This document shows positions 4,237 to 28,823 of a stretch of DNA of 64,000 bases, in pieces. The translations under genes and the position numbers were made by a program. The notes beneath the pieces were generated by a model that was given only the letters and a program-made list of their open reading frames with translations, searched no databases and was not told the origin of the DNA. Where the stretch lies: NCBI GenBank assembly GCA_019694875.1, contig JAIBBC010000001.1, forward strand, positions 1,557,501-1,621,500. The letters are read 5' to 3'. Source of the DNA: Cyclobacteriaceae bacterium. Its GTDB lineage: Bacteria; Bacteroidota; Bacteroidia; Cytophagales; Cyclobacteriaceae. Each line of letters begins with the position of its first letter. The stretch's first letter is position 1.

Positions 4237-4254
4237 CTTGGCAGAGGAGGAGGG
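4237..4254. repeat. 18-bp direct repeat, candidate attachment core (A/B junction)
   Basis: CTTGGCAGAGGAGGAGGG is found here and exactly again at 50784-50801, 46,547 bp away. Different sequences adjoin it on each side, but left and right flanks are each recognisably related between the two sites. That is the pattern expected of att cores between tandem elements. On the minus strand it reads CCCTCCTCCTCTGCCA and so resembles a tRNA 3' end, but no tRNA body is present. Confidence 0.6.
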
Positions 4255-4449: not shown

Positions 4450-4731
4450 TTAGAGTATCACAATTTGACTTCCTTTGGCGGGATGGTATGAAGGCCTGTA
4501 TTGCAGATATTTTAGCGCGATCAAGTCAGTAATTATTTTGTGATAGGTTGCTGTCGATTTGATTTTTGACGCAGTCATTAGCTGGCTCCGTGAAATATTG
4601 AATGGATTAATGAAACCACTGTCAATCCAGGCTACGGCCAATGCAGTACAGACACCAACGTGAGTTGTCGTGAGGGCTGCATCGGATGTAACGCGAGCGA
4701 GAAAACTACTTAATTTGCCAACGCTGTTCAT
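4450..4731 (-). CDS. Small helical protein paired with the helix-turn-helix gene
   Basis: I do not recognise the family of this 93-residue protein. The middle contains the segment NISRSQLMTASKIKSTATYHKIITDL, which looks like a winged or simple helix-turn-helix, followed by a short beta-like tail (YRPSYHPAKGSQIVIL). The pattern recurs in Bacteroidota mobile elements next to excisionase-like genes. It overlaps the upstream helix-turn-helix gene by 26 nt, so the two are probably made together. A role in excision or replication control is inferred from position. Element C has a close homologue at 50999-51295. Confidence 0.6.
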   Translation of the reverse strand: MNSVGKLSSFLARVTSDAALTTTHVGVCTALAVAWIDSGFINPFNISRSQLMTASKIKSTATYHKIITDLIALKYLQYRPSYHPAKGSQIVIL

Positions 4732-5014
4732 TGTTCTTCAGAAGCTTCGCGATTTCGTCATAGTCGTAGTAGGCGGTACCTCCAATTTTACTATAGGATA
4801 GCGTGCCGTTGATTCTCAAGTTCTGCAACGTCCCAGTTGAAATGCCCAGGAGTTTTTTGACTTCTGATGATTTAAGCCATTTATTGGTTGGAGTAGTGGT
4901 CGAACTAGCCAGCAGGGTCTTTATTTCCTGTATAAGATTTTCCTTAAATATTTCAAGATCACCCACAGTGAGTAGTTGATCTCGATTAATTCTTCCCTCG
5001 TTCCTTTCCCTCAT
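4706..5014 (-). CDS. MerR/excisionase-like helix-turn-helix protein
   Basis: The 102 residues have an N-terminal coiled-coil-like part beginning NRDQLLTVGDLEIFKE, followed by the helix-turn-helix WLKSSEVKKLLGISTGTLQN and the wing segment NGTLSYSKIGGTAYYDYDEI. This is the DNA-binding domain of the excisionase/MerR-like HTH_17 class found in Bacteroidota conjugative and prophage elements. It starts 2 nt after the spike gene stop, so it is at the 3' end of the structural operon in element B. It probably acts as an excision or regulatory factor. Element C has a homologue under its own upstream region. Confidence 0.8.
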   Translation of the reverse strand: MRERNEGRINRDQLLTVGDLEIFKENLIQEIKTLLASSTTTPTNKWLKSSEVKKLLGISTGTLQNLRINGTLSYSKIGGTAYYDYDEIAKLLKNNEQRWQIK

Positions 5015-5016
5015 AA

Positions 5017-5895
5017 TTATTGCACATTAAAATTTAAAATGTTCATTGCCTCATCGTCATACCCTGGCTTGTAAGAAGGGAGGCATTTAATCCAATACTT
5101 CGTTCCGGTTGTTTCATCACCGGTGATATTGGTGTTTATCCAAGTTTGAAGGCTTGTCAGAGTTGAATGAACTGACCAATTGCTTGATACGTCAAGCCGA
5201 CTCTTGTACGTCACCGAGGATAACTGGTGAGTAAAGTCGTGAGCTATGGAATTGATCTTTCCACGAAGCACGAACATATCCCTGTCATGGTAGTGATTGT
5301 AATGCTCATCATCATCCCAGTCACCAGAGAAGAAGAATTGTATGCTTCTTTTCTTAAGATTTAGTCCGATAAGCGCATCTGCCAAATCCTGAACTCTAAC
5401 CAAATCACCATCGGTTACAAGTGCATTGAGTTCTGAAATCGTATCGATGTCCTCCCGTTTCAAAAATGAAAACCCTTGAATAAGACTATGCAGCTTTTCT
5501 AGAGTATTGCCATTTACCGGAACATTTCCTTTGATACCCGTTATCGCACTTGTTAAGTCTTCTGTTCTAACCAAGTCTGCATCCTGGACAATCGTATTCA
5601 GTTCAGCCAGGTGATCAATGTCCTCGCGTCTTAGATAAGTAAGACCTTGGACAATGTTGTAGAGCTTCTCCAGGGAGTTGGCCACCACCGGCACGTTTCC
5701 TTTTAAAGCATTGATGGCAGACATGATATCGTCTGCCTCCATGAGCACCGCATCCTTTAGAAAGGAGTTGAGTTTCGCTAGCGTATCAATGTCATTTGGC
5801 GTTATCCCATTACCATTTCCGGTTGACACTTTCAGATAGATATTGTAGAGTAACTCTTCGCTAATAGAACTGAATGGAGGCTTAGGTGTGTTCAT
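5017..5895 (-). CDS. Spike/fibre-like protein of element B (short form)
   Basis: A start at 5895 (292 residues) is preferred to the upstream ATG at 5937, because the element C protein begins with the matching MxxPKPPF...SEELLYNIYLK. The N-terminal half has about three tandem repeats of 50 residues with the pattern DIDxLAxLNxxLxDADLx...INAIKGNVPVxxNTLEKLYNIxQG. The C-terminal 100 residues (YNHYHDRDMF, then a beta-rich end) share nothing visible with element C. A conserved base with a variable tip is usual for receptor-binding fibres. It overlaps the upstream gene by 14 nt. Confidence 0.55.
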   Translation of the reverse strand: MNTPKPPFSSISEELLYNIYLKVSTGNGNGITPNDIDTLAKLNSFLKDAVLMEADDIMSAINALKGNVPVVANSLEKLYNIVQGLTYLRREDIDHLAELNTIVQDADLVRTEDLTSAITGIKGNVPVNGNTLEKLHSLIQGFSFLKREDIDTISELNALVTDGDLVRVQDLADALIGLNLKKRSIQFFFSGDWDDDEHYNHYHDRDMFVLRGKINSIAHDFTHQLSSVTYKSRLDVSSNWSVHSTLTSLQTWINTNITGDETTGTKYWIKCLPSYKPGYDDEAMNILNFNVQ

Positions 5896-6556
5896 AAACC
5901 TTTGGCGTAAAAATCCATCCGAGTGCCAGTGCGGCAAATACAGTTGTTGCCGTGATCACGCGCTTGAGTGTGATCCGTCTAAGCGACCTAAAGTCAACCA
6001 ACGTATAGCTGAATGAATTTCCATGATGTTTCGCATGGAGCTTGCATAATTGCATGAATGCATAGAAGTCATCTGCATCTTTGAACACCTGGCACCCTGC
6101 GGAATATTGGTCAATGAATTGCGTTGAACCTGTGCTTTCAGCGCGGTGGATATTGATTCCAAAATTTCCAGTCTCTTTCGTCCCGTTGCTGAAATCCAGG
6201 ATTGCGTCCCTGTCGTAGTCACGGATGACTGTCACCGGCTTCACTTGAACCAGAGCTTCATACTTTCCACGATGCAGACCGATAGCATACGCATCCTGAT
6301 TTTGACCTTGCGCGAGGATCGCTGTTCCCTGTGGATAAGTCGGGTTGTTCAACCAAAATGTTCCTGGATCAGTGGTAGCCGGAAAGATGTGGTAGTTCCA
6401 CTTTCCATCAGGCTTAGTATAAAACACATGTATCTCATCATCGAAGCTATTTGAGTTTACATTCTTGCTTCGAAGCCCGACAATGTTTAGCTGATACGGT
6501 TTTGTATAGAGGGTGAAGCCGAATTCCTTCAATATTTCTTTGACGCGAGATAACAT
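5882..6556 (-). CDS. L,D-transpeptidase-like protein with C-terminal membrane anchor
   Basis: This 224-residue protein carries GINIHRA (His137) and YSAGCQVF (Cys155), spaced like the His and SxGC catalytic motif of YkuD-type L,D-transpeptidases. A membrane segment at about 199-216 follows a basic stretch, so the catalytic part would be fixed to a membrane. In a phage setting the likely substrate is peptidoglycan, either for cell entry or release. The protein is well conserved in element C, and both catalytic motifs are kept there. The exact family was not confirmed. Confidence 0.6.
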   Translation of the reverse strand: MLSRVKEILKEFGFTLYTKPYQLNIVGLRSKNVNSNSFDDEIHVFYTKPDGKWNYHIFPATTDPGTFWLNNPTYPQGTAILAQGQNQDAYAIGLHRGKYEALVQVKPVTVIRDYDRDAILDFSNGTKETGNFGINIHRAESTGSTQFIDQYSAGCQVFKDADDFYAFMQLCKLHAKHHGNSFSYTLVDFRSLRRITLKRVITATTVFAALALGWIFTPKVYEHT

Positions 6557-6581
6557 GTGTTCTACTGTTTAATTTGTTTGC

Positions 6582-7109
6582 TTAGGCTGCCTTGTAGTTG
6601 AATGAATTGACCCGATTCATCCAACCATCATAGAAAACAATCTGATCGGGTCTGCGCTTGATGATTGCATTCAGGAATACTTTGCGCTCAATCTTCAATG
6701 CGTTAAAGAGCAATTCCTGGTCAGCGCAGTTGATCGCGGTGACGGTCTGCGGACCTACAATACCATCAACTGTTGCCTTCACAACCCGCTGAACAATCTT
6801 CGCCACTGTCTTGCGACCAGAGTTATATCCCCAATCCACAATGAACTCAGCTAATGATTGATTCAGTATCAGGTCAGCCAGGAAATAATCCCAGAAGATT
6901 TTCTTCGCGATGTACTTGGCATCGCCTTCACTTAGTTTCTTGATATCTTCCGCATCAATGTCTCCATCGCCATCCTTGTCGTGACCGTGTTCCTGCCACA
7001 CTGAAAGAATGACTCCATACTTGGTCGGGCCACCTCTGTCCAATGGATGATTCACATACCCTCCCTCTAATCGCAGGAGCTTGCCTGCGAAACTTTCAAA
7101 CTTCGCCAT
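6582..7109 (-). CDS. GH108-type N-acetylmuramidase (endolysin)
   Basis: The 175 residues begin with a glycosyl hydrolase 108 core, LLRLEGGYVN...DRGGPTKYG, in which Glu15 is the expected acid catalyst. They end with a predicted peptidoglycan-binding domain 3 region (FIVDWGYNSGRKT... DGIVGPQTV... FYDGWMNRVN). Such enzymes cut the glycan strands of peptidoglycan. There is no signal peptide, so export would need the holin or virion assembly. It is followed by the L,D-transpeptidase-like gene and preceded by another wall-binding gene, so three wall-active genes lie together. Confidence 0.88.
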   Translation of the reverse strand: MAKFESFAGKLLRLEGGYVNHPLDRGGPTKYGVILSVWQEHGHDKDGDGDIDAEDIKKLSEGDAKYIAKKIFWDYFLADLILNQSLAEFIVDWGYNSGRKTVAKIVQRVVKATVDGIVGPQTVTAINCADQELLFNALKIERKVFLNAIIKRRPDQIVFYDGWMNRVNSFNYKAA

Positions 7110-7122
7110 TATAAATAATTGT

Positions 7123-8097
7123 TTAAGTGTATTTGACGTCCTGTGTCGGGACTTTGAGAATATTGTTGTCGATTGACTTGAACCAGGTCATTCCATTCGC
7201 TACTTCCAGTTCGTCTCCGAGTATCGTATTCCTGCGCACGGGTATCCGGTTGTTCTGTGCGTCGGTCACAACAGTTTCGCGGATAGTGATAAGGTCTTTG
7301 TAGAGCCTGATTCCCTGCAAGCTCCATGTGCCTGTGCTGCTCACTCTTAAACCCATGCGCAAGAATTCATTTCGTATTTGGGCCTTCGCTGCTTCATTCG
7401 ATTTGAAAGCGTACTCCAACAAGTCTGTTACTATCGTTTTGGCAATGAAGCTTTGTTTCTTATAATATTCATTGACTGACGAGTAGTCACCAACGCTTTT
7501 CAATTGCTTCAGCACGGAGAGCACTTGTTCAATGTTCTGCGACTGTGCCCCTGAGTATAGACTAACTGCCAATGCGGAAGGATTAAACACCACTGTCAAT
7601 GATCCAGAACCACCGGTGATCTTGTTGAACGTTGCTTCGTTCACAGTTTCCGGATAGCCTGCTGACTTTAACGCATTGGCAGTTTGTGGGCCGAATTGCC
7701 CATCAACGGAAATGCCTGGCGAAGTCTTTGCCAGTGCCTGTTGAAGCATTGAAACGCGAGAACCCTTGCTTCCTCTTTTCAATGGAAAGCTATCGCTACC
7801 ACTGGATACAGCTCGTGATGTAAAAGAAGCATAAGATGTTGGAAGCGTGTTGTTGATGATGATTGTATCTGAAGAAGCCTCCGATGGAATCTGATTTTGC
7901 TCCATCATCTTCTTTTTCTTCAGACGATCATACACCAAGTATCCACCGCCACCCAGAGCGGCTAACGCAAGCGCATAGATAAAGACCTTGGTTGGCTTAA
8001 CTCCTTTCTTTTTTGCCGGAGCTTTCTTCGCAGGACGCGCAAGTTTCTTTGGCTTCTTTGCCTGCACTTTCTTTCCCTTCGTTACCTTCTTAGCCAT
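7123..8097 (-). CDS. Membrane protein with peptidoglycan-binding domain
   Basis: The 324 residues start with a very basic Lys/Ala/Pro-rich tail (1-36), then one membrane segment (about 37-57). A peptidoglycan-binding type 1 domain follows at about 103-147: FPLKRGSKGSRVSMLQQAL and VDGQFGPQTANALK. The last 170 residues form an unknown helical and beta-rich domain ending in EVANGMTWFKSIDNNILKVP. The basic tail could bind nucleic acid or lipid head groups on the inner side. The architecture suits a virion membrane protein that contacts the host wall. Stop and next start are 13 nt apart. Confidence 0.7.
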   Translation of the reverse strand: MAKKVTKGKKVQAKKPKKLARPAKKAPAKKKGVKPTKVFIYALALAALGGGGYLVYDRLKKKKMMEQNQIPSEASSDTIIINNTLPTSYASFTSRAVSSGSDSFPLKRGSKGSRVSMLQQALAKTSPGISVDGQFGPQTANALKSAGYPETVNEATFNKITGGSGSLTVVFNPSALAVSLYSGAQSQNIEQVLSVLKQLKSVGDYSSVNEYYKKQSFIAKTIVTDLLEYAFKSNEAAKAQIRNEFLRMGLRVSSTGTWSLQGIRLYKDLITIRETVVTDAQNNRIPVRRNTILGDELEVANGMTWFKSIDNNILKVPTQDVKYT

Positions 8098-8496
8098 TTA
8101 CTTCTTTGCGTTTAAAAGCCTTATCAGCTCGTTGTACTCATCACTGCTCAGCTCTTCCTCCAGGTCAGCGTTAAGACTTCTACCATAGAGATTGGCATAC
8201 TCCTTCTGTACTTTCGTGTACATACTCTTTGATGGTATCTCATTGAATACTTGGATTACCATCGGTTCGTTGGTGCCCCATCCCATGTAGTTGTCGTTAT
8301 CAAACGCCATCTTCAATTGCTTCGCGAAGGTTGCCGGATCACCAACTTCAAGACTGTTTCTCTGAGAAATGTTCGCCCTGGTCTTTTTATAAAGGTGACG
8401 TCCGAGAAGAAACAGACCCGTTGCCGTGCCAAGACCGAGTGTCGAGTAGATCACCACGACCTTGAGATTTTGGAGTGTCTGTTCGTCTGCCTTCAT
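8098..8496 (-). CDS. Membrane-anchored protein with a single annexin-like repeat
   Basis: The 132 residues have one membrane segment (about 12-33) and then a domain that aligns by eye with one annexin repeat. The segment MGWGTNE at 71-77 matches the GxGT calcium loop. An acidic residue (Glu114) stands 39 positions after the Thr, where type II annexin sites have Asp/Glu. The rest reads V..EYANLYGRSLNADLEEELS...YNELIRLL, as in annexin helices C-E. Annexins normally have four repeats and bind acidic phospholipids with calcium. A lone repeat on a membrane anchor is odd. Element C has a close copy. Confidence 0.6.
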   Translation of the reverse strand: MKADEQTLQNLKVVVIYSTLGLGTATGLFLLGRHLYKKTRANISQRNSLEVGDPATFAKQLKMAFDNDNYMGWGTNEPMVIQVFNEIPSKSMYTKVQKEYANLYGRSLNADLEEELSSDEYNELIRLLNAKK

Positions 8497-8507
8497 TCAA
8501 TTCTTTT

Positions 8508-8690
8508 TTAGAGACCCAATGCCTTCTTCGCTAGGGTAGTCTTCATCGGATCGTTCTTCACCACATCGGCAAGCTTGGCGATTTCCCTTGCCTTTAACTT
8601 CTGCATCAAGGTTGATGCTGCTGACAGTTTTACTTCTGCCTCACCTTGCGTTTGCGCCTCAATACTCACCTCAAAACTGTACTTGTTCAT
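8508..8690 (-). CDS. Conserved 60-residue protein of the structural operon
   Basis: The protein has a beta-like start (YSFEVSIEAQTQGEAEVKL) and then basic helices with the segment LMQKLKAREIAKLADVV. I do not recognise it. It differs from the element C copy at only about three residues, so it is among the best conserved proteins of the module and is likely to be a structural or scaffold part. It lies between the coiled-coil gene (1 nt away) and the annexin-like gene. Confidence 0.7.
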   Translation of the reverse strand: MNKYSFEVSIEAQTQGEAEVKLSAASTLMQKLKAREIAKLADVVKNDPMKTTLAKKALGL

Positions 8691-8691
8691 A

Positions 8692-9507
8692 TTATGTTTG
8701 TTGTTTAATGTTTACATGATTTATGATCAGGTCGATCTTGCTCTTGTCATCGGCCAGGGTTTGAAGAATGTGAAGCACTCTTTCAAATTCGTCTTTGGTG
8801 AATTGTGACTTGAGTTGATTGACAAACTGGATTGCGGCCTGATCCTCTTCGTTGATTGCGGAAGAAGGACTCGATTTGGGTTTGAAGCTTACCTCGGATT
8901 CCGGCAACTGTTCTTCAGTTTGCTCTTCATTGCTGGATTGCAATAAACCCGCGAGAGCTTCACCACCAGGAAAGGCAGCCATGAGTTTTGGATTGCGTTT
9001 GACGAAGCTCTCGACAAGGCTTGACCCTATATCTCCCAAAAAACTATTCAAAGGAGATTGTTTCATTTCAAGTCTGGCGTTTTGCTTCTCCAGTTCTTCC
9101 ACCTCGCTCTCCAAATCGGCTATGTGTTGCTGAAGTTTTTTATTGTCGTCCTTCAGCGTCTCATATTCCTTCTCGCGGAGCTTACGCTGGACTTCTTCAT
9201 CAACGATGTTCTTCACGTCCAATCCGGAAAGGCCTTCTTTCGGTTGATCACCGAAATAGAAGATGCGCTTTTCGTTGTTGTTGCTACTACCCGTGAATAG
9301 CAACACTTCGATAGACCGCGTATCGGCAGTAACAAAGTTTTCGAACATGGTGAACATATCCGGATCGTTCGTTCTGCGAACAGCCTTGAATCCATCCACC
9401 AGGATTTCATAATCAATGGGCTGGCCTTTGTCATAGTAAAGGCGCAGGTATTGTATCAGGTTGTCGATCTTCTTCTGTTCGTATTTCTCTTTATTCGGTA
9501 GTGCCAT
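8692..9507 (-). CDS. Coiled-coil protein of the structural operon
   Basis: This 271-residue protein starts MALPNKEKYEQKKIDNL. It has a long charged coiled coil at about 105-150 (KLQQHIADLESEVEELEKQ), a Gly/Ala stretch (AAFPGGEALAGLLQ), an acidic Ser-rich linker and a final helical segment (IQFVNQLKSQFTKDEFERVL). No family is recognised. The coiled coil suggests an oligomeric scaffold, minor capsid or assembly protein. Neighbours on both sides are a few nt away, which supports one operon. Confidence 0.65.
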   Translation of the reverse strand: MALPNKEKYEQKKIDNLIQYLRLYYDKGQPIDYEILVDGFKAVRRTNDPDMFTMFENFVTADTRSIEVLLFTGSSNNNEKRIFYFGDQPKEGLSGLDVKNIVDEEVQRKLREKEYETLKDDNKKLQQHIADLESEVEELEKQNARLEMKQSPLNSFLGDIGSSLVESFVKRNPKLMAAFPGGEALAGLLQSSNEEQTEEQLPESEVSFKPKSSPSSAINEEDQAAIQFVNQLKSQFTKDEFERVLHILQTLADDKSKIDLIINHVNIKQQT

Positions 9508-9510
9508 AAT

Positions 9511-9822
9511 TCAATTGACAATGATTGCCTGTATAAATTTTATCCTTCTCTTTTCGTACCCTGGATTCGCGATCCTGATTTCGCCCCGGTGAACGTGAAT
9601 GCTCTCTGGTATTGGATTGTCGGTCGAGTCGTACATTCCATATTCAGAGTCAACCACAAGTCCCGGAGGCTCATCGATGATGAAGAACATTTCGTTATAA
9701 GCCGGAATAGTCATTGTTGTCCCGCCCTCGATAATGAAGTCCCTGTGACGGAAATGGTATTTCGAATACCCTTGCTGTTTTAGTCGCAAGGGCGCAAACT
9801 CCAAAATGAATTGTTCCGTCAT
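9511..9822 (-). CDS. Small beta-rich structural-operon protein (103 aa)
   Basis: The sequence is rich in predicted strands (FIIEGGTTMTIPAYNEMFFIIDEP, then HVHRGEIRIANPG), with no membrane segment and no catalytic pattern. I do not recognise it. The fold could be a small jelly-roll or beta sandwich, but that is a guess. It overlaps the upstream gene by 4 nt and has an element C homologue of the same length. Confidence 0.6.
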   Translation of the reverse strand: MTEQFILEFAPLRLKQQGYSKYHFRHRDFIIEGGTTMTIPAYNEMFFIIDEPPGLVVDSEYGMYDSTDNPIPESIHVHRGEIRIANPGYEKRRIKFIQAIIVN

Positions 9823-10187
9823 AAGTGTATCTCCATTGGCTCCAGCGGATCAATCTCGCCTCGCTGTTCTTCTTCTTTCTTCTCATCCGCCACCACAACT
9901 TCAAGCTCTTCAACCGTCTCGCATTCGACATAAATCGTGATGACAAAAGGCACATCGAACGTTTCTCCTTTAAACCATGCGTTGATGATCGATGTGTCTC
10001 CATCAACATTCACAGGTTTGATCTTCGGAATGTTCCCCGTGACCCATGCCTTATCGCTGTCGAATTGAGGATCGTCAACTTTGACCAAGGCCTCGTCAGA
10101 GGTTTCAATTCCTTCTTCTTCGACCCTGGCCACATAGAAGACATCCATCATATCGTTGGCCTGAAAGCTTACGGTCCCGGTTCCCAT
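9819..10187 (-). CDS. Small beta-rich structural-operon protein (122 aa)
   Basis: The 122 residues start MGTGTVSFQANDMMDVF and show alternating strand patterns in the middle (INAWFKGETFDVPFVITIYVE), ending in an acidic, variable tail. The family is unknown. The first 90 residues are conserved in element C and the last 30 are not. It overlaps the small upstream gene by 19 nt and the downstream gene by 4 nt, so the three are probably translated together. Confidence 0.6.
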   Translation of the reverse strand: MGTGTVSFQANDMMDVFYVARVEEEGIETSDEALVKVDDPQFDSDKAWVTGNIPKIKPVNVDGDTSIINAWFKGETFDVPFVITIYVECETVEELEVVVADEKKEEEQRGEIDPLEPMEIHL

Positions 10188-10327
10188 TTGCCTGAAGTTG
10201 TTACCGCTATTCCAGTTACTTTTTTCACGTTAGCCGGAAGTCGGATTTCAAATGGTTTGAACCGCTCAAACTGATTGATCTCCAACTTGGTCATGATGAT
10301 TCTCCGCTTTGTTTTCGTTACAATCAT
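10169..10327 (-). CDS. 52-residue basic protein, overlapping genes on both sides
   Basis: A short frame runs from ATG at 10327, which overlaps the TGA of the upstream gene (AAATGA), to TAA at 10169. The product begins MIVTKTKRR and contains FERFKPFEIRLPANVKKVTGIAV. The same frame exists in element C at 61225-61368 with the FKPFEIRLPANVKKVTGIAV block intact, so it is under selection at the protein level. No family is recognised. Overlaps with both neighbours suggest coupled translation. Confidence 0.65.
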   Translation of the reverse strand: MIVTKTKRRIIMTKLEINQFERFKPFEIRLPANVKKVTGIAVTTSGKWEPGP

Positions 10328-10704
10328 TTCATCTCACATAAGAGGTTGATGATAACTTTGTAATAAGCAAAGGGAGCGTTGGGATTGGCCGTGTCCTTGT
10401 ATTGGATTTTGAGTTCACCGTTTCCCGCGATGACTCCGCTGCCCAGTGACTTGTATTTGTCATCGGGAGCCACGGCCATTCCACTCATAAACATTTTGCT
10501 TTCGAAGTCCTCGGGAAAAAGCTCTTCTCCCGAAAGCTCGATGCGTTGAGAGCCTCGGTAGAACAAGAGGTTCGGCTTGTCAGAACTCATCATGATGCCA
10601 TGGACCACTTTCACGTTCTTGTCCAGGTCAAACTTCTTGTTCACCGGTTGTCCCTCCGCGTCTACTTGGAAGGTGTAGATCTTGTCCACCCAACGCTTCT
10701 CCAT
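10324..10704 (-). CDS. Highly conserved beta-rich protein, candidate minor or second capsid protein
   Basis: This 126-residue protein has many predicted strands (IYTFQVDAEG, VVHGIMMSSD, NLLFYRGSQRIELSGEEL, ELKIQYKD). About 92% of residues are the same in element C by my count, far more than for the spike or integrase. It lies directly after the 242-residue candidate capsid protein (6 nt). The size and strand pattern would suit a single jelly roll. Two adjacent small jelly-roll capsid proteins are known from P23-77-like tailless phages. That comparison is only a hypothesis. Confidence 0.4.
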   Translation of the reverse strand: MEKRWVDKIYTFQVDAEGQPVNKKFDLDKNVKVVHGIMMSSDKPNLLFYRGSQRIELSGEELFPEDFESKMFMSGMAVAPDDKYKSLGSGVIAGNGELKIQYKDTANPNAPFAYYKVIINLLCEMK

Positions 10705-10710
10705 GACCTA

Positions 10711-11439
10711 CTAAGGAATGGTTGCTGTTCCTTCAAGACCTACATAGAGGACAGAGTTGGCATCAAGCCCTTTGATAGTGCCGAGTTCAATCTCAAACTC
10801 GATGTCCACATCGTCATGGATCAGACGTGGGTTAGCGAGTTTATAGAAACTCTTCGGTACCATGTCAAACTGAGTCGTTACGAACTTCCGGTTTGAAGTA
10901 TCGCTCACGAGCTGCTTCTTGTTCGCCTTCAACTTGAACTCACCATTCGCCAACGCACCAATGTTTTCGATGGTATCGAACTTGGTTGTTTTGATGTCGT
11001 CAACATCCATCGATGCAGCCACTCCATGCAGGAGGTAAATTCCAGACACAAGCAAAGCCATGTTCTTCGGCAGTTTGGCATTGCTGATGTTGCGCAGGTT
11101 CACTTCTTTCACATCCTGACTTTCGAACATCTTGATCGTCTTTGCGCCTCTGATCGGTTTGATCGTATAGATCAGTTGATCGGCCAGGCGCAACTTGCCC
11201 TGGAGCAATTGCTCTTTGATGTGCTTGGGTAGTTCAACGAAAAACTTCTCAAACTCTGCGCGTGATCCCTGTGAAGGAATGTGTCGTTTCACGATCTTAC
11301 TCATCGCCTTAGCCCGTTGTACAGGGTTCAGTGCGTTCAGATACCCTAACAACTCGGTATCCATCTCTCCATTCAGACCCAACAACTCTGTCGGGTTTGT
11401 GTACTCACTCTCCATGAGTTGTCCTAATGCTCCCAGCAT
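10711..11439 (-). CDS. Candidate major virion protein (242 aa)
   Basis: The N-terminal 90 residues are helical and nearly identical in elements B and C (from MLGALGQLMESEYTN to HIPSQGSRAEFEKFF). The remaining part is strand-rich and ends DIEFEIELGTIKGLDANSV and a short tail. There is no membrane segment and no enzyme motif. Strong conservation, central position in the operon and the beta-rich end make it my best guess for a main capsid or coat protein. I cannot match it to a known capsid family by eye, and it is too short for usual double jelly rolls. Confidence 0.4.
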   Translation of the reverse strand: MLGALGQLMESEYTNPTELLGLNGEMDTELLGYLNALNPVQRAKAMSKIVKRHIPSQGSRAEFEKFFVELPKHIKEQLLQGKLRLADQLIYTIKPIRGAKTIKMFESQDVKEVNLRNISNAKLPKNMALLVSGIYLLHGVAASMDVDDIKTTKFDTIENIGALANGEFKLKANKKQLVSDTSNRKFVTTQFDMVPKSFYKLANPRLIHDDVDIEFEIELGTIKGLDANSVLYVGLEGTATIP

Positions 11440-11547
11440 AATCTTACTTTGTGTTTAATTGTTACTCTTGATTTTAAAACTTTAAAAAGGCGGGAACGCA
11501 GTTGGAGAAAAATGAGGACTAAAAAACTCCCCTGTATTCCCTTGCCT

Positions 11548-12105
11548 TTAGAATTCTCTTTCCACTTCGTTCAAGCTTCCGTTCATTGTGGCGATCTGCT
11601 CTTGAATCCTGTCAATGGCCGACATATCCAGTTCCTTCGTTTCGCTGTAAGGATTCACGAAGTAGGTCACCTGTTCCTCGGTTTGCTCCCCGGATAATCC
11701 CGCAGTTGCTGAAGGTTCCGCAGCCTTGCTGATGTAGAGCTTCTCCGAGAAATTCTTGAAGAATGTTCCCACACGATCTTTCGCTTCTTCAGCAATCTGC
11801 TTCATGTCGAATCCATCGACCCCTTGCACAGTTGGCTTGTTCTGATTCTGAAAACCGTTGCTCAGTATTAAGCCGAGACCTGCCGCTGTGATGTATGCGT
11901 TCTGCTTATGAAAGCCCAGTAGTGTCACCGGAATCCCCGCGAGCAAAGAATGTTTACCCAATGCTGCACCGGCACCTCCCGCTGCAATGGCAGCCAGAAT
12001 CACCAATCCTCCCTTCGTTACAGTCTGCGCTACCGGATGCTCCATCACCTGGGCAGTCCCGAAGAGCGCGTTTTGTTGTTTATTTTTCTTCTTCGCGTTT
12101 GCCAT
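11548..12105 (-). CDS. Gly/Ala-rich membrane protein
   Basis: This 185-residue protein has a basic start (MANAKKKNKQQ) and hydrophobic Gly/Ala-rich segments at about 28-50 (GGLVILAAIAAGGAGAALG) and 55-85. A polar C-terminal half follows, with VGTFFKNFSEKLYISKAAEP. It probably spans a membrane two or three times with both ends inside. It is very similar in element C. In the context of the operon it could be a protein of an internal virion membrane or of the host membrane during assembly. The stop of the upstream gene is 1 nt away. Confidence 0.6.
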   Translation of the reverse strand: MANAKKKNKQQNALFGTAQVMEHPVAQTVTKGGLVILAAIAAGGAGAALGKHSLLAGIPVTLLGFHKQNAYITAAGLGLILSNGFQNQNKPTVQGVDGFDMKQIAEEAKDRVGTFFKNFSEKLYISKAAEPSATAGLSGEQTEEQVTYFVNPYSETKELDMSAIDRIQEQIATMNGSLNEVEREF

Positions 12106-12106
12106 G

Positions 12107-14008
12107 TTATAGTAGATTTTGTGCTTTCACTTTTGTTTTCGTTTTCGTCTTTGCTGTCTTGCCCTTTTTAGCTTTGCCCTTCTTGGGTGGAGTTCCATTC
12201 AAACCATTCGTTGCCGATCCACCTCGCATAGCTCTCATCAGAAGAACTCCTCCTGCGATCACCCCACCGGCAACAAGCAGAGACTTGCCGGGATTATCTT
12301 TCACCCAGGTCGTAGTCTTCTGAATGAAGCCAGTTTTCGCTGCATTGTCCTGAGTCTGTACAGCACTGCCTGGCGATGCGCTTTCACTTGGTACAAGCAT
12401 AGCTCCACTGGAGGCAGATTCATTTGATAGTACAGGCTGAGTAGTTTCAGCAGTACTGGAATAATTTTGTGTCGTTTCATTTGTTTTCACTGTTGACGCT
12501 GGAAGACTTGGAGCCGAAACTTTCGGAGCCGTTTGAGTTGGCACCAGCGTTCTTGCGGCAGACACTAAAGGCTTTGCAGCGGACACAGCACTCGTGACTT
12601 TTGAAATCAGCGATGAGGAACTGGGTTGCGCTGTTGGCGCTGTCTCCGAGTAGTCATCTCTCATTTCATCTTCTGCTACAGAAGAGGGTAGTTCTGAAGC
12701 TGTTCCTGCGTTGTCTGTTTCACTTTGAAATGACTTCTCTTCAGCTCCACCCTTGTTGAACAGTCCCTTCACTTGCTTCAAAGCACCTGCGATGGCGGCT
12801 ACCGCGGACGTAGCAGCCGCGATAGCAGTACCACTGGCGATTTCACCTAACCCTTCGAATCCATCACTGTGGATGATGTTATACTCATCTTCGTCCGCAT
12901 ACACATTGTCCAACCCATCCACTCCTTCAAAACCGCTCAGTGGTACCTTTTTGTCTTTGTTACCTTTGCCACTCAGTATCGCCTTCTTGAGATTCTCTTT
13001 CTTACCTCCGGCTTGCCAGTAAACTGTTTCCGCTCTGTCTTTCACTGAGCGAACCTTCTTCAATTCGTTCAGGTTTATTCCTTTCGCCTGCGCTTGAGCA
13101 TCGGTGAGGTAAGCGTACCGTAGTCTTCCCGCTACGTTCATTAAGTTCACCTTCATAGCAAGGAGAAATCCGTTGCGCAGAAGGATGGTAGCTGGGTTTA
13201 CATAGCGGTTCAGAAACCGGATACCATCACCCACCTTGTCGCCAACTTTCTTGACAACCGTTCCTACTTTCTTCGCAGCAGTCTTTACCGCACCACCGAT
13301 CTTCTTGAAGATGTTCCCCATCTCCTCGTCATCATAAATTGACGCAAGGTCAGATAGGTCAACATTGTCGTAATCCGAAAACTGCAATTGTTCGTCTTGC
13401 TCGTCCTCCCCATCAAATCCGTCTAAATAATCCAGTCTCATATTGTAGTCTTTACATTCTAAAAAAGGTTGTTCATCATCAAACCTGTCCTTCACACAAT
13501 CCAGCACGATGTAGTTCTCGCGATTATCCGAGTAATCATTCATGTGACCAGGCTTCGGCACGATGGGATACACATGCTGCCATCGCGGAACTTCCGGATA
13601 CCGCTTCGGGTATTTCGTGATCCTCGCCACACTCGGAATATTGAGAGACCGCAGGATGGAGAGAATAAATACGCTGTAACAGTCACAGTCTACTCCCGAT
13701 TCACGATCACCCCACGCACGCCTGGGACTTCGTACTTGTTCTACTCCTTCCCTGTCTCTCTTGTACTGAATGTGCTGGTAGACAAAGTGCCAGATATTCG
13801 AGCACGTTTCTTCCAGCGTTCTTCCCTTCAATACTTTCGCGATCTTTTCTGTTTGCCATACCGTCTGTGGCAACGCCTTGCGAATGAGATTCATCGTATC
13901 TTCTACATCCGCGCTTTTTCTTATTGTTGTGTCATTACCACCTGGTGGAGGAAAGAGATGATCGAACTCCCTTCCATCCTTCAACCTCCTCTTTCTGTCC
14001 GCAACCAT
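12107..14008 (-). CDS. Transglutaminase-like protein with C-terminal membrane anchor
   Basis: The N-terminal domain of this 633-residue protein has the order expected for transglutaminase-like cysteine peptidases: GVDCDCYSVF (Cys108), WQHVYPIV (His145) and YIVLDCV (Asp170). Residues 215-290 are rich in Lys and Gly with an amphipathic look (VKTAAKKVGTVVKKVGDKVG). A long Ser/Thr/Ala-rich linker (about 400-560) leads to a membrane segment (about 576-595) and a basic end. It may cut or cross-link proteins or peptidoglycan peptides during virion maturation or entry. The element C copy runs off the window. Confidence 0.65.
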   Translation of the reverse strand: MVADRKRRLKDGREFDHLFPPPGGNDTTIRKSADVEDTMNLIRKALPQTVWQTEKIAKVLKGRTLEETCSNIWHFVYQHIQYKRDREGVEQVRSPRRAWGDRESGVDCDCYSVFILSILRSLNIPSVARITKYPKRYPEVPRWQHVYPIVPKPGHMNDYSDNRENYIVLDCVKDRFDDEQPFLECKDYNMRLDYLDGFDGEDEQDEQLQFSDYDNVDLSDLASIYDDEEMGNIFKKIGGAVKTAAKKVGTVVKKVGDKVGDGIRFLNRYVNPATILLRNGFLLAMKVNLMNVAGRLRYAYLTDAQAQAKGINLNELKKVRSVKDRAETVYWQAGGKKENLKKAILSGKGNKDKKVPLSGFEGVDGLDNVYADEDEYNIIHSDGFEGLGEIASGTAIAAATSAVAAIAGALKQVKGLFNKGGAEEKSFQSETDNAGTASELPSSVAEDEMRDDYSETAPTAQPSSSSLISKVTSAVSAAKPLVSAARTLVPTQTAPKVSAPSLPASTVKTNETTQNYSSTAETTQPVLSNESASSGAMLVPSESASPGSAVQTQDNAAKTGFIQKTTTWVKDNPGKSLLVAGGVIAGGVLLMRAMRGGSATNGLNGTPPKKGKAKKGKTAKTKTKTKVKAQNLL

Positions 14009-14037
14009 ACGCCTCCTTCTTTCTTCATCATCTCTGC

Positions 14038-14523
14038 CTATGCTGGCTTTCCTCCGCCTAAAGTGATATTGTCAGTCTTTGTGTAGGGCAAGCTGTCATT
14101 GATGGTTGTGATTGTGTGTACAACCAAATTCAGTTTGCCTGCCTCGCGATACTCCTTTACCAATGCCGGAACTGTTGTAGCAAGGCTCAGGAACCCAAGC
14201 TTGATTTTGATCGGATCAAGATTGACTTCGCTGAACTTCGGTATCTCGATGTTTGCATCTTTTACTTGTGATGACGCTATGGTTTTGTCTGCATAGATCA
14301 TCTTCACAAAGGGATGTTTCACTTTGATACTTCCACCGCTTGGATTCTTGAGTTTCACATTGATCGAAAGCTCAATTCCGCTGAGGCCCACGTTATGAAT
14401 AGATACCTTTGTATCAGATTCTAGTTCATTGGAAAGCCTGTTGAGTTTGAGCAGGTAGCTGCCACCAAAATAGATGGCTGCCACCGCTCCGGCTCCGATC
14501 AACATGTGCCTACTCTTGATCAT
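14038..14523 (-). CDS. LEA14-like protein with N-terminal membrane segment
   Basis: The 161 residues begin with a membrane or signal-anchor segment (about 7-24, LIGAGAVAAIYFGGSYLL). A beta-rich domain follows that reads like LEA type 2/WHy proteins: SIHNVGLSGIELSINVKLKN and a Pro-rich middle. WHy/LEA14 domains are found in stress proteins and in some virion membrane or secretion systems, where they sit outside the membrane. It overlaps the first gene of the operon by 14 nt. Confidence 0.55.
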   Translation of the reverse strand: MIKSRHMLIGAGAVAAIYFGGSYLLKLNRLSNELESDTKVSIHNVGLSGIELSINVKLKNPSGGSIKVKHPFVKMIYADKTIASSQVKDANIEIPKFSEVNLDPIKIKLGFLSLATTVPALVKEYREAGKLNLVVHTITTINDSLPYTKTDNITLGGGKPA

Positions 14524-14794
14524 GGCGTTTCTTCTTTCCGATCTTGATGCCTCTGATCTTTTTCATCTTGGCAAAGTCCTTCACCTTCTCTTTGTGTCGT
14601 TCCCAAAGTGGGCTCAATACATCGCCAAGAACTTTGAAGGCAAGACAGATGATACCACCCACTACTGCTTGAAGTGCATAGTCAATCAGGAACGCGAGAT
14701 TCACGTTACCTAAAAGATTAAACACTGCCCCGAACACGAAAGCAATCCAATTGCTTCCTGATCCATGATTTTGATTTACTTCTGCTCCGTTCAT
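14510..14794 (-). CDS. First gene of the structural operon, small membrane protein
   Basis: This 94-residue protein has two hydrophobic segments (about 16-32 and 37-58: WIAFVFGAVFNLLG and AVVGGIICLAFKVLGDVL) and a strongly basic C-terminal third. Function is unknown. Holin-like behaviour is possible from size and layout, but a virion membrane protein is equally possible. The ATG lies only 4 nt after a -7-like box (TACATCTTTG), so the mRNA may have no leader. Confidence 0.55.
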   Translation of the reverse strand: MNGAEVNQNHGSGSNWIAFVFGAVFNLLGNVNLAFLIDYALQAVVGGIICLAFKVLGDVLSPLWERHKEKVKDFAKMKKIRGIKIGKKKRHDQE

Positions 14795-15014: not shown

Positions 15015-15509
15015 ATGATACTGCCTGATGTACTAAAGAAAGATTTAAGCGTTGTTTTTTGTGGTACTGCCGCAGGAAACAAATCTGCCGAACGCAAGGC
15101 ATATTATGCCGGTGCAGGTAATTTATTTTATACAACCTTGGCGAGCTGTGGCTTTACGCCTCGTATCCTAAAGCCCCACGAATTTCAAGAATTGCTTAAC
15201 TATCAAATTGGATTGACCGATTTGGCGAAATTTACCTTCGGCATGGATAAAGATTTGAAACACGAAGATTACGACGCAAAAGGTTTTGAAGAAAAGATAC
15301 GGATACATCAACCAAGGTTTGTTTGCTTCAATGGCAAAACGGCTGCATCAAAATATTTGGGTGTTACGGATACCAAATTATTACAGTACGGTTTAAATGC
15401 ATCTACAATAAATAAAACCAAAATATTTATAGCTCCTTCTACTTCGCCTAAAGCACTTGCTTATTGGGATGAAGCCATTTGGCAACAATTAAAAACTCTA
15501 ATTAACTAA
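15015..15509 (+). CDS. Mug/TDG-like DNA glycosylase
   Basis: The 164 residues follow the uracil-DNA glycosylase superfamily, Mug type. An N-terminal FCGTAAGNKSAERK and YYAGAGNLFYTTLASCG replaces the usual GINPG...SG..FA..GN.FW..L..SG. GLTDLAK and a C-terminal APSTSP strand-loop follow. Such enzymes flip out and remove uracil or damaged and modified pyrimidines. The gene ends 1 nt before mcrB, and mcrB overlaps mcrC, so the glycosylase appears to be part of a McrBC operon. Action on modified phage cytosines is an inference from this context. Confidence 0.75.
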   Translation: MILPDVLKKDLSVVFCGTAAGNKSAERKAYYAGAGNLFYTTLASCGFTPRILKPHEFQELLNYQIGLTDLAKFTFGMDKDLKHEDYDAKGFEEKIRIHQPRFVCFNGKTAASKYLGVTDTKLLQYGLNASTINKTKIFIAPSTSPKALAYWDEAIWQQLKTLIN

Positions 15510-15510
15510 A

Positions 15511-17262
15511 ATGAAACCAAGCTGGGCAAACCAAGATGTGTATAATCATTTTGATGCTTTTTTGAAGAAAAGTATCCTCAATACCGACAGTTATATAACC
15601 GACAGTCCAGGTATCTTCAGTATTGACAACCTCAATGCTTGTGTAACAGCCTTTGTTGACAATCCAGATACAGGCGACCGAAATTTTGACGCCAAATCAA
15701 AGGACCAGTTTTCAAAAACACCAAAAGCTGTCCAAGAAGTATTTGCACATTTCATTTGGCTTTGGGGTATGCCCGCCTCCGACATGATAAGTTCTGGAAA
15801 GAAAGGAGCAGTTCTAAGATTTTTGGGTGATGACTATCACGACAAACTCACTAATGCTTTTGTAGAGGGTGGTATAGGTTCAGCAGGTCAACGCCATAAG
15901 CTAAACAAGCCCTTTGAAATTTCCTACTTGCTTTTGCTTTTCAGAGATGTAAAAAGTAATCTACAAGCAAAGCAAATCAATGACACTGCTTCCTTGAAAA
16001 AATACATTGAAGCACTTTGTCGAGAATTATACTATAACAATGAAACGACGACAGCCACCGCAGACGAAAAACTGAAAAAGGCAGGAAAGGAATTTCTCGC
16101 TCTTCACCATATCCTCTTACACTTATGCGATCCTGAAAGATATGAGGCTATTGCAGCACAAAAACATAAGGATGCCATCATCAATACTTTTTTTAGTCTA
16201 TTGAACAAAGAGAACACAGAGGGACTTTGGGGTGATATTGACGAAAGCATTTTGGCTATCCGCAAAAAGCTTGATGAGGTTTTGGGTTATGAAGTTAGTT
16301 TCTATGATGAGGATATTCAGGATGCCTGGAACTTTGGTGAAAGTAAGGACGATGTTTCAGAAGTAACTTTGTTTGAGTACAAAAAGGCAATTGTGTTTTA
16401 TGGTCCTCCGGGTACATCTAAGACACATTCAGCTACCCGTTTGGCTGAGTTGCTAATCACAAAACAATATTTCCGCAACAAGCAAAACATCAAAAAATAT
16501 TTTGAAACTTCAGATAAGATCCTTGAAGAACACATACATCATTTGCAATTGCATAGCAATTACAATTATGAAGATTTTATTGCTGGTATGCACATTGAAG
16601 ATAAAAGCAGTGTAGTAAAACCCGGCTATCTTTTAAATCTCATAGATAAAATAAAGGCCGACCCACTTCCTCATATTCTAATACTCGATGAAATAAACCG
16701 TACAGATATTTCGAGGTTGTTTGGTGAACTTTTTTCAGCATTGGAATACCGAAACAAAAAGATAAGACTTTCAATTGGAGATTTGGAAATTGCTCTTCCC
16801 GCCAATCTGTATTTCATTGGCACAATGAATGAAATAGACTTTTCACTTGAACGTATTGACTTTGCTCTTCGCAGAAGATTCCTATGGCAATTTAAAGGTT
16901 TTGATAGGGGAATCCTTTGGGCTATGATACATCAGAAGAAAAAGGAACTGCAAATGAATATAAGCGATGCAGATATTGAAACCTTTATCAATCGCTGTGA
17001 AAGGTTAAACAAAGAAGTGTCTGCCATGCCTGAACTAGGTGAAAATTATCAGGTAGGTCATACATTTTTCGCGGAAGTGGTTGACGTTTTCAAGTCGTTA
17101 AAAGGTGTTCATTCAGGTCGCCTTCATTTTTTAAAACAACCTGTAAACATTCTATGGGAAATTAGCATTAAGCCAATACTACAAGCTTTTCTAGGGAATA
17201 TGGATGCAGATTCTAAACGCGATAAAATAGACGATTTGCAAAAAGTATTAACTAATGACTGA
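15511..17262 (+). CDS. mcrB: McrB-type AAA+ GTPase of a modification-dependent restriction system
   Basis: In this 583-residue protein the first 250 residues are a variable region, which in the family recognises DNA. The AAA+ core follows with Walker A GPPGTSKT (about 298-305) and Walker B LILDEINRTDISRLFGELFS. The McrB signature TMNEIDFSLERID takes the place of MNTADRS, and the arginine pair is in ALRRRF. It forms a ring that moves DNA after GTP hydrolysis and drives McrC cleavage. The stop overlaps the mcrC start by 8 nt. The unusual partner is the glycosylase gene just upstream. Confidence 0.9.
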   Translation: MKPSWANQDVYNHFDAFLKKSILNTDSYITDSPGIFSIDNLNACVTAFVDNPDTGDRNFDAKSKDQFSKTPKAVQEVFAHFIWLWGMPASDMISSGKKGAVLRFLGDDYHDKLTNAFVEGGIGSAGQRHKLNKPFEISYLLLLFRDVKSNLQAKQINDTASLKKYIEALCRELYYNNETTTATADEKLKKAGKEFLALHHILLHLCDPERYEAIAAQKHKDAIINTFFSLLNKENTEGLWGDIDESILAIRKKLDEVLGYEVSFYDEDIQDAWNFGESKDDVSEVTLFEYKKAIVFYGPPGTSKTHSATRLAELLITKQYFRNKQNIKKYFETSDKILEEHIHHLQLHSNYNYEDFIAGMHIEDKSSVVKPGYLLNLIDKIKADPLPHILILDEINRTDISRLFGELFSALEYRNKKIRLSIGDLEIALPANLYFIGTMNEIDFSLERIDFALRRRFLWQFKGFDRGILWAMIHQKKKELQMNISDADIETFINRCERLNKEVSAMPELGENYQVGHTFFAEVVDVFKSLKGVHSGRLHFLKQPVNILWEISIKPILQAFLGNMDADSKRDKIDDLQKVLTND

Positions 17263-18571
17263 AACGATTAAACATATAACAGCTTTTGATTGCTTGCCTT
17301 TTGACACTGAAGCGGCAACGGCCGATGTAATGCAGGAGTTCATACAATCGCAGAGCAAAAATGTGTTTTGGTTTTCTACTGACTATAACGCGGATGATGA
17401 TTCCAAGTTAGCCGAGTATGATTACAGAAATAATGCTTGGACAGCCGGAAGGTTTGTTGGAGAAGCTATTTTCAACCACAACCAAGTACATTATAAAATA
17501 ACCATCAAACCGAGATTTGGTGAAAAAATGTTATTCAGGATGTTGGAAGAGATTTTTAATATTCGGATAACCACTTCAGCAAGTCAGGCCAGTAAAAGCA
17601 TTGATTGGCAACATTACATTAAGCGGATAATTGCATTTATCTGGCTGCAAAAATTATCCAATGCCAATTTACATGGTGTTCCTAAAGTGCAGTTGAAAGG
17701 AGAATACAAAGGGCAAACCGTCAGGGGTCGTTTGGATGTAAGGAAGTCTATAAAGCCCTTGCACCGCAATAACGAAGTGATTTCAGCCTTCAGAGAAAAA
17801 CATATCGATGAAAGTATTGCTCAGATCATATTTCAAGCTTACCAAAGTTTGAAAACAGACTTTGAAATGGGAAGGATCAATATACCCGATTCCGCAAGGG
17901 AGGCCATCAATCAGGTTCATAGCGTAATTCAAAGAAAGAGACACATCAGTGAAATAGATTATAAAAACATTAAGTACAAAGATATTTACTTAAGTTGGAA
18001 ACCATTAGTTGATTTGTCTTGGGATATTATCAAACGAAAGCAATTCAGCTTAAAACAGGATAAGGAAGAAAAAGGTTTTGGTTTTTTTATTGACATGGCC
18101 GAAGTATGGGAGCAATATTTAAGATCAATTTTAAAGAAAAAACTTTCTCCATTGGGCTGGTATTATCGCGCCAGTGAGAAACAGATTGCTTACGAGGGTT
18201 TTTTTTATAAAAGGGAATTAAGACCAGATTTAGTTTTTCAAAAAGACAATGATATCGCTATCTGGGATGCTAAGTATAAAAGGATGATGGGAAGATATTA
18301 TGACGTTGATCGTTCAGACTTTTTTCAGATTCATACATACATCCAAAATTATTTGAATCACAGGTGTGTTAAGGCTGGCGGTTTGCTCTATCCAATTTCA
18401 AATATCAAAACAGATGTTGAAAAATTTAAAAGTCCATTTTTGATCAATGAACAAGGAGTGAGGCTCAATTTTATTATCGATGGAATTGAATTGGCAGAAA
18501 ATAGAGAAGAACTGAATTCAAAAGATAAGGAGGCGGAATTTTTGAGCAGGATAGCTAAGTCAATTAGTTAA
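17255..18571 (+). CDS. mcrC: McrC-type nuclease subunit
   Basis: The 438 residues have the usual McrC layout. An N-terminal part docks on McrB (FVGEAIFNHNQVHYKITIKPRFG) and the C-terminal domain is a PD-(D/E)XK nuclease with RPDLVF and IWDAKYKRM at about 322-342. Together with McrB it should cut DNA carrying modified bases. The start is inside the mcrB end, as in other McrBC loci. A gene for a DUF4365 protein follows after 59 nt. Confidence 0.88.
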   Translation: MTETIKHITAFDCLPFDTEAATADVMQEFIQSQSKNVFWFSTDYNADDDSKLAEYDYRNNAWTAGRFVGEAIFNHNQVHYKITIKPRFGEKMLFRMLEEIFNIRITTSASQASKSIDWQHYIKRIIAFIWLQKLSNANLHGVPKVQLKGEYKGQTVRGRLDVRKSIKPLHRNNEVISAFREKHIDESIAQIIFQAYQSLKTDFEMGRINIPDSAREAINQVHSVIQRKRHISEIDYKNIKYKDIYLSWKPLVDLSWDIIKRKQFSLKQDKEEKGFGFFIDMAEVWEQYLRSILKKKLSPLGWYYRASEKQIAYEGFFYKRELRPDLVFQKDNDIAIWDAKYKRMMGRYYDVDRSDFFQIHTYIQNYLNHRCVKAGGLLYPISNIKTDVEKFKSPFLINEQGVRLNFIIDGIELAENREELNSKDKEAEFLSRIAKSIS

Positions 18572-18630
18572 ACACTCGGAGTGAAATCTTAGTGAGCATC
18601 CAATAAGATTAAATTTTAAGAGAAAAGATT

Positions 18631-19524: not shown

Positions 19525-19586
19525 CGGCGAATGTCCGTTCGAAACTGTGAAGTCTACCATTAAAACGTTGTTACCCTACTTGGAGA

Positions 19587-21583: not shown

Positions 21584-21764
21584 GCTTACTTATTTTAGGA
21601 ATGGGACTACGAGATTTAGCATTTCAGTCCACAAACTCGGAAAATGACTTAATTTAATCAAAAATAGCACTTTTTTAACTAAAATAAATAGTATTCGCCA
21701 AGCTCATCGGAAGAAAACTCGTCTAGATTAAAAAACAAGGGCAAGTAAGACTGAATTAGAAGCT

Positions 21765-22730: not shown

Positions 22731-22870
22731 ATAGTGTCACGGATTGACGGTCACATTGGCTATATCTATTGATTTTATTATAAAAAACGCTATTTTGACT
22801 TACTCAATACACTTTTTATTACTCCTATCTTTATGGAGTACTTTTTGCAACCCTAGCCGCCAAACGAACG

Positions 22871-28559: not shown

Positions 28560-28823
28560 TTCTAGTGGAGTTAAGCCGATTCGCTTTTTAGAAGCACTTG
28601 ACTATCTCAGGAGATACCATTGTGGCCGATATGAACACGGCTGATTCAAGCGATAGCCAAAGGCAGTAGGAATCAATCGATACTCAATCGAATTCCGATC
28701 ACCTCTAGCAAAAATGAATTCGCAAAAATGCGTATGTAGTCTTTTTCCTCTTTCATATTATGGGAAATTGAATGCGTAATTTACGAAATTTAGACCGATA
28801 AGGTGTTATCCTAAGAGACCACA

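Follow-up and report, generated by a model that had tools for sequence, protein, structure and literature searches.

The stretch of DNA analysed here (the window) spans 64,000 nucleotides, positions 1,557,501 to 1,621,500 of contig 1 in the 4.68-Mb genome of a Cyclobacteriaceae bacterium. Its left part contains an operon of 16 open reading frames (ORFs), all on the minus strand and located between positions 5017 and 14794, where a first-pass annotation of the sequence had placed them. In the order of transcription, the encoded proteins measure 94, 161, 633, 185, 242, 126, 52, 122, 103, 271, 60, 132, 324, 175, 224, and 306 amino acids (aa). The annotation had read this operon as the virion genes of a temperate, tailless, membrane-containing phage, a reading that our analysis supports. 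The operon interval was correct, but the element carrying it is about five times larger than that interval and is one of four related units, of which the operon occupies the left part of unit 2 (Table 1).

Table 1. Features of unit 2 and its borders in window numbering. Counts out of 61 refer to source sequences, including overlapping pieces of the own genome and short loci; TM, transmembrane; HTH, helix-turn-helix; att, attachment site.
Feature	Position	Strand	Evidence or remark
Left att core of unit 2, GCAGAGGAGGAGGG	4241..4254	+	5 copies, at unit borders/tRNA-Ser 3' end
93-aa small protein, DNA-binding guessed	4450..4731	-	Family F17, 3 members in region; no significant Pfam family
102-aa HTH_17 excisionase-like regulator	4706..5014	-	Pfam HTH_17 1.5e-7; PHROG excisionase/regulator 1.4e-6
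306-aa putative spike/receptor-binding protein, last operon gene	5017..5937	-	Role suggested by place and variability
224-aa membrane-anchored endolysin-related protein	5882..6556	-	phrog_33083 endolysin 4.8e-14; TM segment
175-aa GH108 lysozyme	6582..7109	-	Pfam GH108 6.2e-18, PG_binding_3 5.2e-13
324-aa membrane-anchored peptidoglycan-binding protein	7123..8097	-	PG_binding_3 4.1e-6; TM segment
132-aa membrane-anchored annexin-repeat protein	8098..8496	-	Annexin 1.8e-5, slightly over cutoff
60-aa conserved operon protein	8508..8690	-	Matched in 21/61
271-aa coiled-coil protein, possible scaffold	8692..9507	-	Many coiled-coil matches
103-aa conserved operon protein, possibly minor capsid	9511..9822	-	39/61
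122-aa protein related to 126-aa family	9819..10187	-	hhalign 1e-28, possibly inflated, as the 126-, 122-, and 52-aa families recruited each other in iterative profiles
52-aa ORF upstream of 122-aa gene	10169..10327	-	Single fused ORF in L022 (11106-11645)
126-aa conserved protein, candidate second capsid protein	10324..10704	-	49/61
242-aa candidate major capsid protein, predicted single jelly roll	10711..11439	-	AF2 model
185-aa membrane protein	11548..12105	-	TM segment; 40/61
633-aa transglutaminase-like, membrane-anchored protein	12107..14008	-	TM segment near C-terminus
161-aa membrane-anchored protein, weakly LEA_2-like	14038..14523	-	LEA_2 0.037, under cutoff; TM segment
94-aa protein, first operon gene	14510..14794	-	Two hydrophobic segments
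Cargo: McrB-like gene with presumed McrC neighbour (by position), type II restriction-modification pair, helicase and weakly DdmE-like pair	15015..29402
Putative repressor module: HTH repressor (30085-30879) between two small proteins of one family	29837..31241		Recurs in units 3 and 4
Second cargo block: MgtC, NhaA, sigma-54 regulator, histidine kinase (by eye), TerC/Alx	31393..41734
1555-aa methylase/strawberry-notch helicase	41839..46506	+	AAA_34 6.2e-23, Helicase_C_4 1.1e-20
536-aa protein, C-terminal RadA/RecA-like ATPase	46506..48116	+	Profile A3 vs PDB RadA 3e-11
160-aa holin	48146..48628	+	GTA_holin_3TM 1.1e-11; PHROG holin 4e-34
189-aa protein, membrane protein by eye	48704..49273	-	Family F22; no Pfam match
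Tyrosine integrase of unit 2, 358-aa frame	49276..50352	-	Family F11; 447, 414, and 453 aa in other units
att core at the border of units 2 and 3	50788..50801	+
Second virion-operon copy in window, unit 3, runs past window end	54452..64000	-

The three wall-active proteins that the annotation had named were recovered as the lysozyme (175 aa), the peptidoglycan-binding protein (324 aa), and the endolysin-related protein (224 aa), the last with relatives in 24 phage records. Likewise, the several membrane-anchored proteins it had noticed correspond to a 19-residue hydrophobic segment in seven of the 16 operon proteins (224, 324, 132, 185, 633, 161, and 94 aa), which would fit an internal virion membrane, although this is indirect. 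For the proposed spike, the N-terminus of the 306-aa protein matches that of an 821-aa version at 54452-56917 in unit 3, and the role itself is suggested by position and variability. Whether this difference in length reflects host-range variation is a guess.

Among Pfam families, only GH108, PG_binding_3 (twice), and Annexin reached the curated cutoff in the operon. The annexin repeats recur within the 132-aa family, with nine of 15 scanned members matching Pfam Annexin (best 8.7e-10). The 633-aa protein matches DUF553 under the cutoff in the window copy (0.051) and up to 6e-9 in its relatives; six of ten scanned family members carry the transglutaminase-like domain at E ≤0.1, three of them over the Pfam cutoff, and one is a C-terminal fragment. 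The 271-aa protein matches Phage_scaffold at 0.0042, likewise under the curated cutoff. One ORF of genome G218 matches both the 122-aa and the 126-aa profiles, and a weak alignment (E 0.007, probability 5%) connects the 126-aa family with the beta part of the 242-aa family.

The annotation had further recognised no terminase, portal, tape measure, tube, or sheath gene by eye, and the profile searches bear this out. Neither Pfam (16 of 16 operon proteins) nor PHROGs (14 of 16, leaving out the 60- and 52-aa ORFs, plus 10 further unit-2 ORFs that include part of the cargo) revealed a portal, a large terminase, or another tailed-phage hallmark, and PHROGs returned no capsid protein for the 14 operon proteins scanned. 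Two 'tape measure' rows appeared at E 0.042 and 0.043, and the single 'head and packaging' row (2e-5) carries an endolysin description. The 10 further ORFs gave just the holin and a family of unknown function in PHROGs at E 0.001.

The 242-aa protein was recognised by neither Pfam nor PHROGs. The annotation had called it beta-rich and proposed a structure prediction; the resulting AF2 model, which supersedes a crude propensity-based secondary structure, is a single jelly roll (pLDDT 83.9, pTM 0.75). The capsid candidate is predicted to have a fold of tailless, membrane-containing viruses, and the model agrees with the single jelly-roll major capsid protein that characterizes sphaerolipovirus-type phages. 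None of the 50 structural matches listed is titled as HK97-type, a listing that excludes nothing, and sequence searches of the PDB with profiles A1 and A2 gave nothing meaningful (best E 0.57 and 1.3). As 23 of the 50 matches listed are the enzyme PHM, the jelly roll might be coincidental and the operon might encode a cell-surface or secretion apparatus of a non-viral integrative element, for anchored and wall-active proteins occur in surface machines too. We regard this explanation as very improbable.

The predicted fold also bears on two viral alternatives. In a phage satellite, the operon would just modify the particles of a helper whose capsid is borrowed; the chromosomal tandem placement and the failure to recognise a packaging motor of its own would fit. 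However, the element has its own capsid-fold, spike-like, membrane, and lysis genes, and the scanned proteins show no profile match to tailed-phage head genes, so we consider a satellite very improbable. A provirus with single-stranded DNA (ssDNA), similar to FLiP of the Finnlakeviridae, would share the Bacteroidota hosts, the membrane proteins, and the lack of a recognised packaging ATPase, and phiCjT23-like ssDNA prophages are known in Flavobacterium (PMC9719478). Against this, the FLiP proteins match none of our family profiles, the FLiP capsid protein aligns to the 242-aa profile with an hhalign probability of 0.4%, and the capsid candidate is modelled with one jelly roll, not two. Furthermore, the phiCjT23-like prophages described there are 6.0-8.4 kb long with dif motifs at their ends, compared with 46-54 kb and an own integrase here, which leaves this alternative with hardly any credibility.

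The operon proteins are under strong purifying selection. Twelve of them, compared across the four units, are 49-99% identical, with ratios of non-synonymous to synonymous substitution (dN/dS) of 0.008-0.158 in the unit pairs with computable dS, many pairs being saturated. For the 242-aa protein, dN/dS lies between 0.008 and 0.059 in five of six pairs, and the sixth is saturated. Between units 2 and 4 this protein is 99% identical at a dS of 0.80; the units therefore represent old, separately maintained lineages rather than recent duplications. Beyond this genome, and with no matches discarded before counting, the 242-aa family was found in 30 of 295 genomes and 21 of 155 genera of a class sample, and in 7 of 395 genomes of a second, phylum-wide sample searched with the profile only, both including the own genome. 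The 18 loci found in a scan of named genomes are all labelled as Bacteroidota, mostly Cytophagales or Cyclobacteriaceae. Across the contexts examined, and apart from losses and substitutions, the genes follow the order 161, transglutaminase-like, 185, 242, 126, 122, 103, 271, 60, 132. Because the 242-aa gene occurs in four copies in the genome and the gene order recurs in related genomes, the operon pattern is more than chance.

Among viral contigs in IMG/VR, the 242-aa query from the window found none and profile A1 found two (38,955 and 40,650 bp), one of which was also found with the relative from genome G110 as the query. The phage records of INPHARED gave none for the element-specific proteins queried, apart from two chance rows at E 5. 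With two contigs from the former and none from the latter, these searches give no evidence that particles occur in nature, and none of the open-licence papers listed by the literature searches describes these elements.

Self-comparison and ORF clustering over 231.5 kb around the window revealed four copies of the virion operon, spaced about 50 kb apart, each adjoined by variable genes. The 14-bp att core GCAGAGGAGGAGGG occurs exactly five times on both strands of this region, at w-44755, 4241, 50788, 105299, and 157356 in window numbering, and the last copy lies at the 3' end of a gene for tRNA-Ser(TGA), called by ARAGORN. Since the core copies mark the unit borders, the tandem array covers 202 kb and consists of units 1-4 with lengths of 48,996, 46,547, 54,511, and 52,057 bp. 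Unit 2 extends from 4241 to 50788 (46.5 kb) and has an integrase, att repeats at both ends, and a putative repressor, as expected of a temperate prophage. The integrase at 2592-3935 lies to the left of the core at 4241 and therefore belongs to the preceding unit 1. The unit 2 integrase has a frame of 358 aa, compared with 414-453 aa for its relatives in the same genome. Close to the att core of unit 3, a cytidine/dCMP deaminase domain (1.2e-15) is present in the 543-aa protein encoded at 51919-53550.

In units 2, 3, and 4, the variable genes give way to a repressor module along with genes for the methylase-helicase, RadA-like ATPase, holin, membrane protein, and integrase. In unit 4, an IS3-like transposase pair, recognised by eye, is located between the holin and membrane-protein genes (L031:10163-11286). 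In unit 1, ORF clustering found RadA-like and integrase genes as well as a single small regulator-family ORF, but no helicase, holin-family, or repressor-family member.

The stretch between virion operon and repressor module spans 14.9-33.9 kb in the six units measured, and another block of about 10 kb is present in unit 2. In this genome, much of the cargo consists of defence genes that differ from unit to unit. Unit 1 matches type I restriction-modification, and unit 2 has an McrB-like gene, type II restriction-modification, and a helicase with a weakly DdmE-like partner. Type IIG genes occur in unit 3, along with a gene that is McrB-like by its clustering with unit 2, and unit 4 carries a phosphorothioation-type set of SspA/DndA, PbeA, PbeC, SspB, and SspC homologues (L029:12091-17875, L030:4763-8861). 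PADLOC gave no match for five of ten unit-2 proteins and one of ten others scanned, and the stretch 17255-18571 in the unit 2 cargo is itself without a match in two cargo scans. At 22871-28559, the helicase (1202 aa) and a 699-aa protein with a weakly DdmE-like C-terminus (PADLOC 2.2e-4) may form a DdmDE-like anti-plasmid pair.

A packaging motor was sought among the P-loop proteins. The P-loop family common to all four units is the RadA-like one, whose nearest PDB relatives are RecA and RadA. A scan for Walker-A motifs in the called ORFs of at least 60 aa in the four units, which depends on the motif, recognised no FtsK/HerA-type packaging ATPase and returned a lysine-rich chance match in the 633-aa family of two units.

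The genome of SSA6 (G295) contains a comparable array, with five core copies at 2958103, 2958288, 3012161, 3061738, and 3109260, the last at a tRNA-Ser gene, and three units of 53.9, 49.6, and 47.5 kb. The first two cores are only 185 bp apart at the left array end, perhaps the remnant of a deleted unit. A tree without support values was calculated from four concatenated virion proteins, covering the 28 element copies in which all four genes are present; in it, the SSA6 copies L005, L021, and L007 pair with units 2, 3, and 4, respectively. The operons of these pairs are 90.8%, 92.6%, and 92.0% identical in DNA, respectively, while host proteins of the two genomes are 55.8-83.5% (six on the right flank) and 44.4-89.4% (six on the left flank) identical. 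The cargo shares no stretch of at least 500 bp at 88% DNA identity or more, and distant relatedness (23-42%) links a few of the cargo proteins. The order differs as well, being unit 1, L005-like, L021-like, L007-like, tRNA in the own genome and L021, L007, L005, tRNA in SSA6. Transfer between hosts in phage particles may have produced this pattern. The SSA6 record contains many split ORFs; its first unit has no recognisable replication or integrase genes and carries an IS21-type pair (by eye), and its homologue of the unit 2 integrase measures 422 aa.

In genome G014, two units with large serine recombinases (by eye) lie apart from each other, their gene content suggesting lengths of about 50 and 43 kb; as in SSA6, the cargo includes apparent efflux systems, named by sequence look. 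In Persicobacter psychrovividus, the circular 53,207-bp plasmid pPP10 (NZ_AP025302.1, L107) carries a related operon (242-aa family 6e-42) together with genes for a strawberry-notch helicase, RadA-like proteins, replication initiation, and ParA/ParB. The megaplasmid pPP1 of this species contains a closely related stretch, in four pieces with 92.8-96.8% DNA identity. Plasmid pPP10 has been typed as non-mobilizable; it probably represents a phage-plasmid belonging to this family. The eight units whose length is known from att cores or a closed plasmid (four own, three from SSA6, and pPP10) average 50.8 kb with a standard deviation of 3.0 kb; G014, G218, and G031, with ends judged from genes only, were left out. 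Because smaller elements exist in other families, of about 14 kb (G031) and 24 kb (G218) as judged from genes, a length of about 50 kb is a rule for this clade and pPP10.

The plasmid form, the large cargo, and the unrecognised packaging ATPase, together with a holin of the GTA_holin_3TM type, could also indicate that the operon makes a vesicle-like or domesticated particle, comparable to a gene transfer agent or a Charybdis-like carrier, and that the units are disseminated chiefly in integrative or plasmid form. The many anchored proteins and the annexin repeats would suit such a particle, and Charybdis, a group of marine virus-like mobile elements with a jelly-roll and a double Greek-key protein, was reportedly detected almost only in the vesicle fraction (PMC12324425). 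In contrast, the lysozyme, the endolysin-like proteins, the variable spike-like protein, and the very low dN/dS fit an infectious cycle, and four distinct lineages in one genome are unlike a single domesticated locus. We therefore judge a vesicle or domesticated carrier to be unlikely.

Similar single-jelly-roll particles with an internal membrane are those of the Sphaerolipoviridae and their relatives (SH1, HHIV-2, HCIV-1, P23-77), whose genomes are typically about 16-31 kb. The elements described here differ by units of about 50 kb, cargo of 15-34 kb, Bacteroidota hosts, no recognised packaging ATPase, and no meaningful profile match to PDB chains (best E 0.57). SPV1 of the Portogloboviridae, also among the closest known systems, is an archaeal virus and thus differs in its host. 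The Autolykiviridae/Vinavirales type has a double jelly roll and a packaging ATPase, unlike the present elements. Integrated tailless prophages exist in Vibrio (PMC11630473, PMC9966536), with genomes <16 kb (PMC11630473). Finnlakeviridae (FLiP, phiCjT23) are lipid-containing, tailless, and infect Bacteroidota, and FLiP has no packaging ATPase (PMC9719478, PMC5894146); they differ by a double jelly roll, ssDNA, genomes of 7.6-9.2 kb, and the absence of detectable sequence similarity. The Pfam matches of the scanned proteins, covering part of the cargo ORFs, included no rolling-circle replication protein. Jelly-roll viruses of the Odin and FLiP groups lack a packaging motor too, but their genomes are small (PMC5894146). 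Charybdis resembles the present elements in its small jelly-roll protein, accessory module, tRNA-adjacent integration in some cases, and lack of satellite-type packaging genes (PMC12324425); it is set apart by its double Greek-key main protein, vesicle-fraction detection, and small circular genomes.

Taken together, the units most likely belong to an undescribed lineage of temperate, tailless, single-jelly-roll, and probably membrane-containing phages with double-stranded DNA (dsDNA), genomes of about 50 kb, and exchangeable cargo, a reading that we hold with good confidence. In such a phage, the 242-aa protein would build the shell, the 126-, 122-, and 103-aa proteins would serve as minor capsid or vertex proteins, the 306/821-aa protein would form the spike, and several anchored proteins would sit on the internal membrane. 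The tyrosine integrase would use the GCAGAGGAGGAGGG core to insert the circular genome at the tRNA-Ser 3' end; this core would be re-formed at each insertion and allow further phages to stack in tandem. The HTH repressor would keep the prophage silent. Upon induction, the methylase-helicase and the RadA-like protein may serve replication before virions assemble, and the GH108 lysozyme together with the three-TM holin would lyse the cell. The cargo, which lies between the virion and replication modules and would be exchangeable, consists in this genome to a large part of defence genes.

A broader proposal, to which we give slightly less than even confidence, is that these units represent a new and widespread Bacteroidota lineage of membrane-containing, single-jelly-roll dsDNA phages of about 50 kb without a known motor. 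The RadA-like ATPase or unknown means would load the DNA, cargo would make up as much as about 60% of a unit with distinct defence genes in each, and serial lysogeny at one tRNA gene would build a defence island. If real, a broad group of tailless prophages in Bacteroidota has largely been missed by current virus libraries, because Pfam and PHROGs did not recognise the capsid candidate and the IMG/VR scans found just two contigs with it. Single-jelly-roll membrane phages would then extend to about 50 kb, and packaging without a known motor would become a question. The array would furthermore provide a concrete route for the growth of defence islands, in which several members of one phage family integrate side by side at a shared tRNA gene, each contributing restriction, phosphorothioation-type, or possible anti-plasmid genes of its own. 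The near-identical virion modules with different cargo in two genomes make this cargo exchange directly testable.

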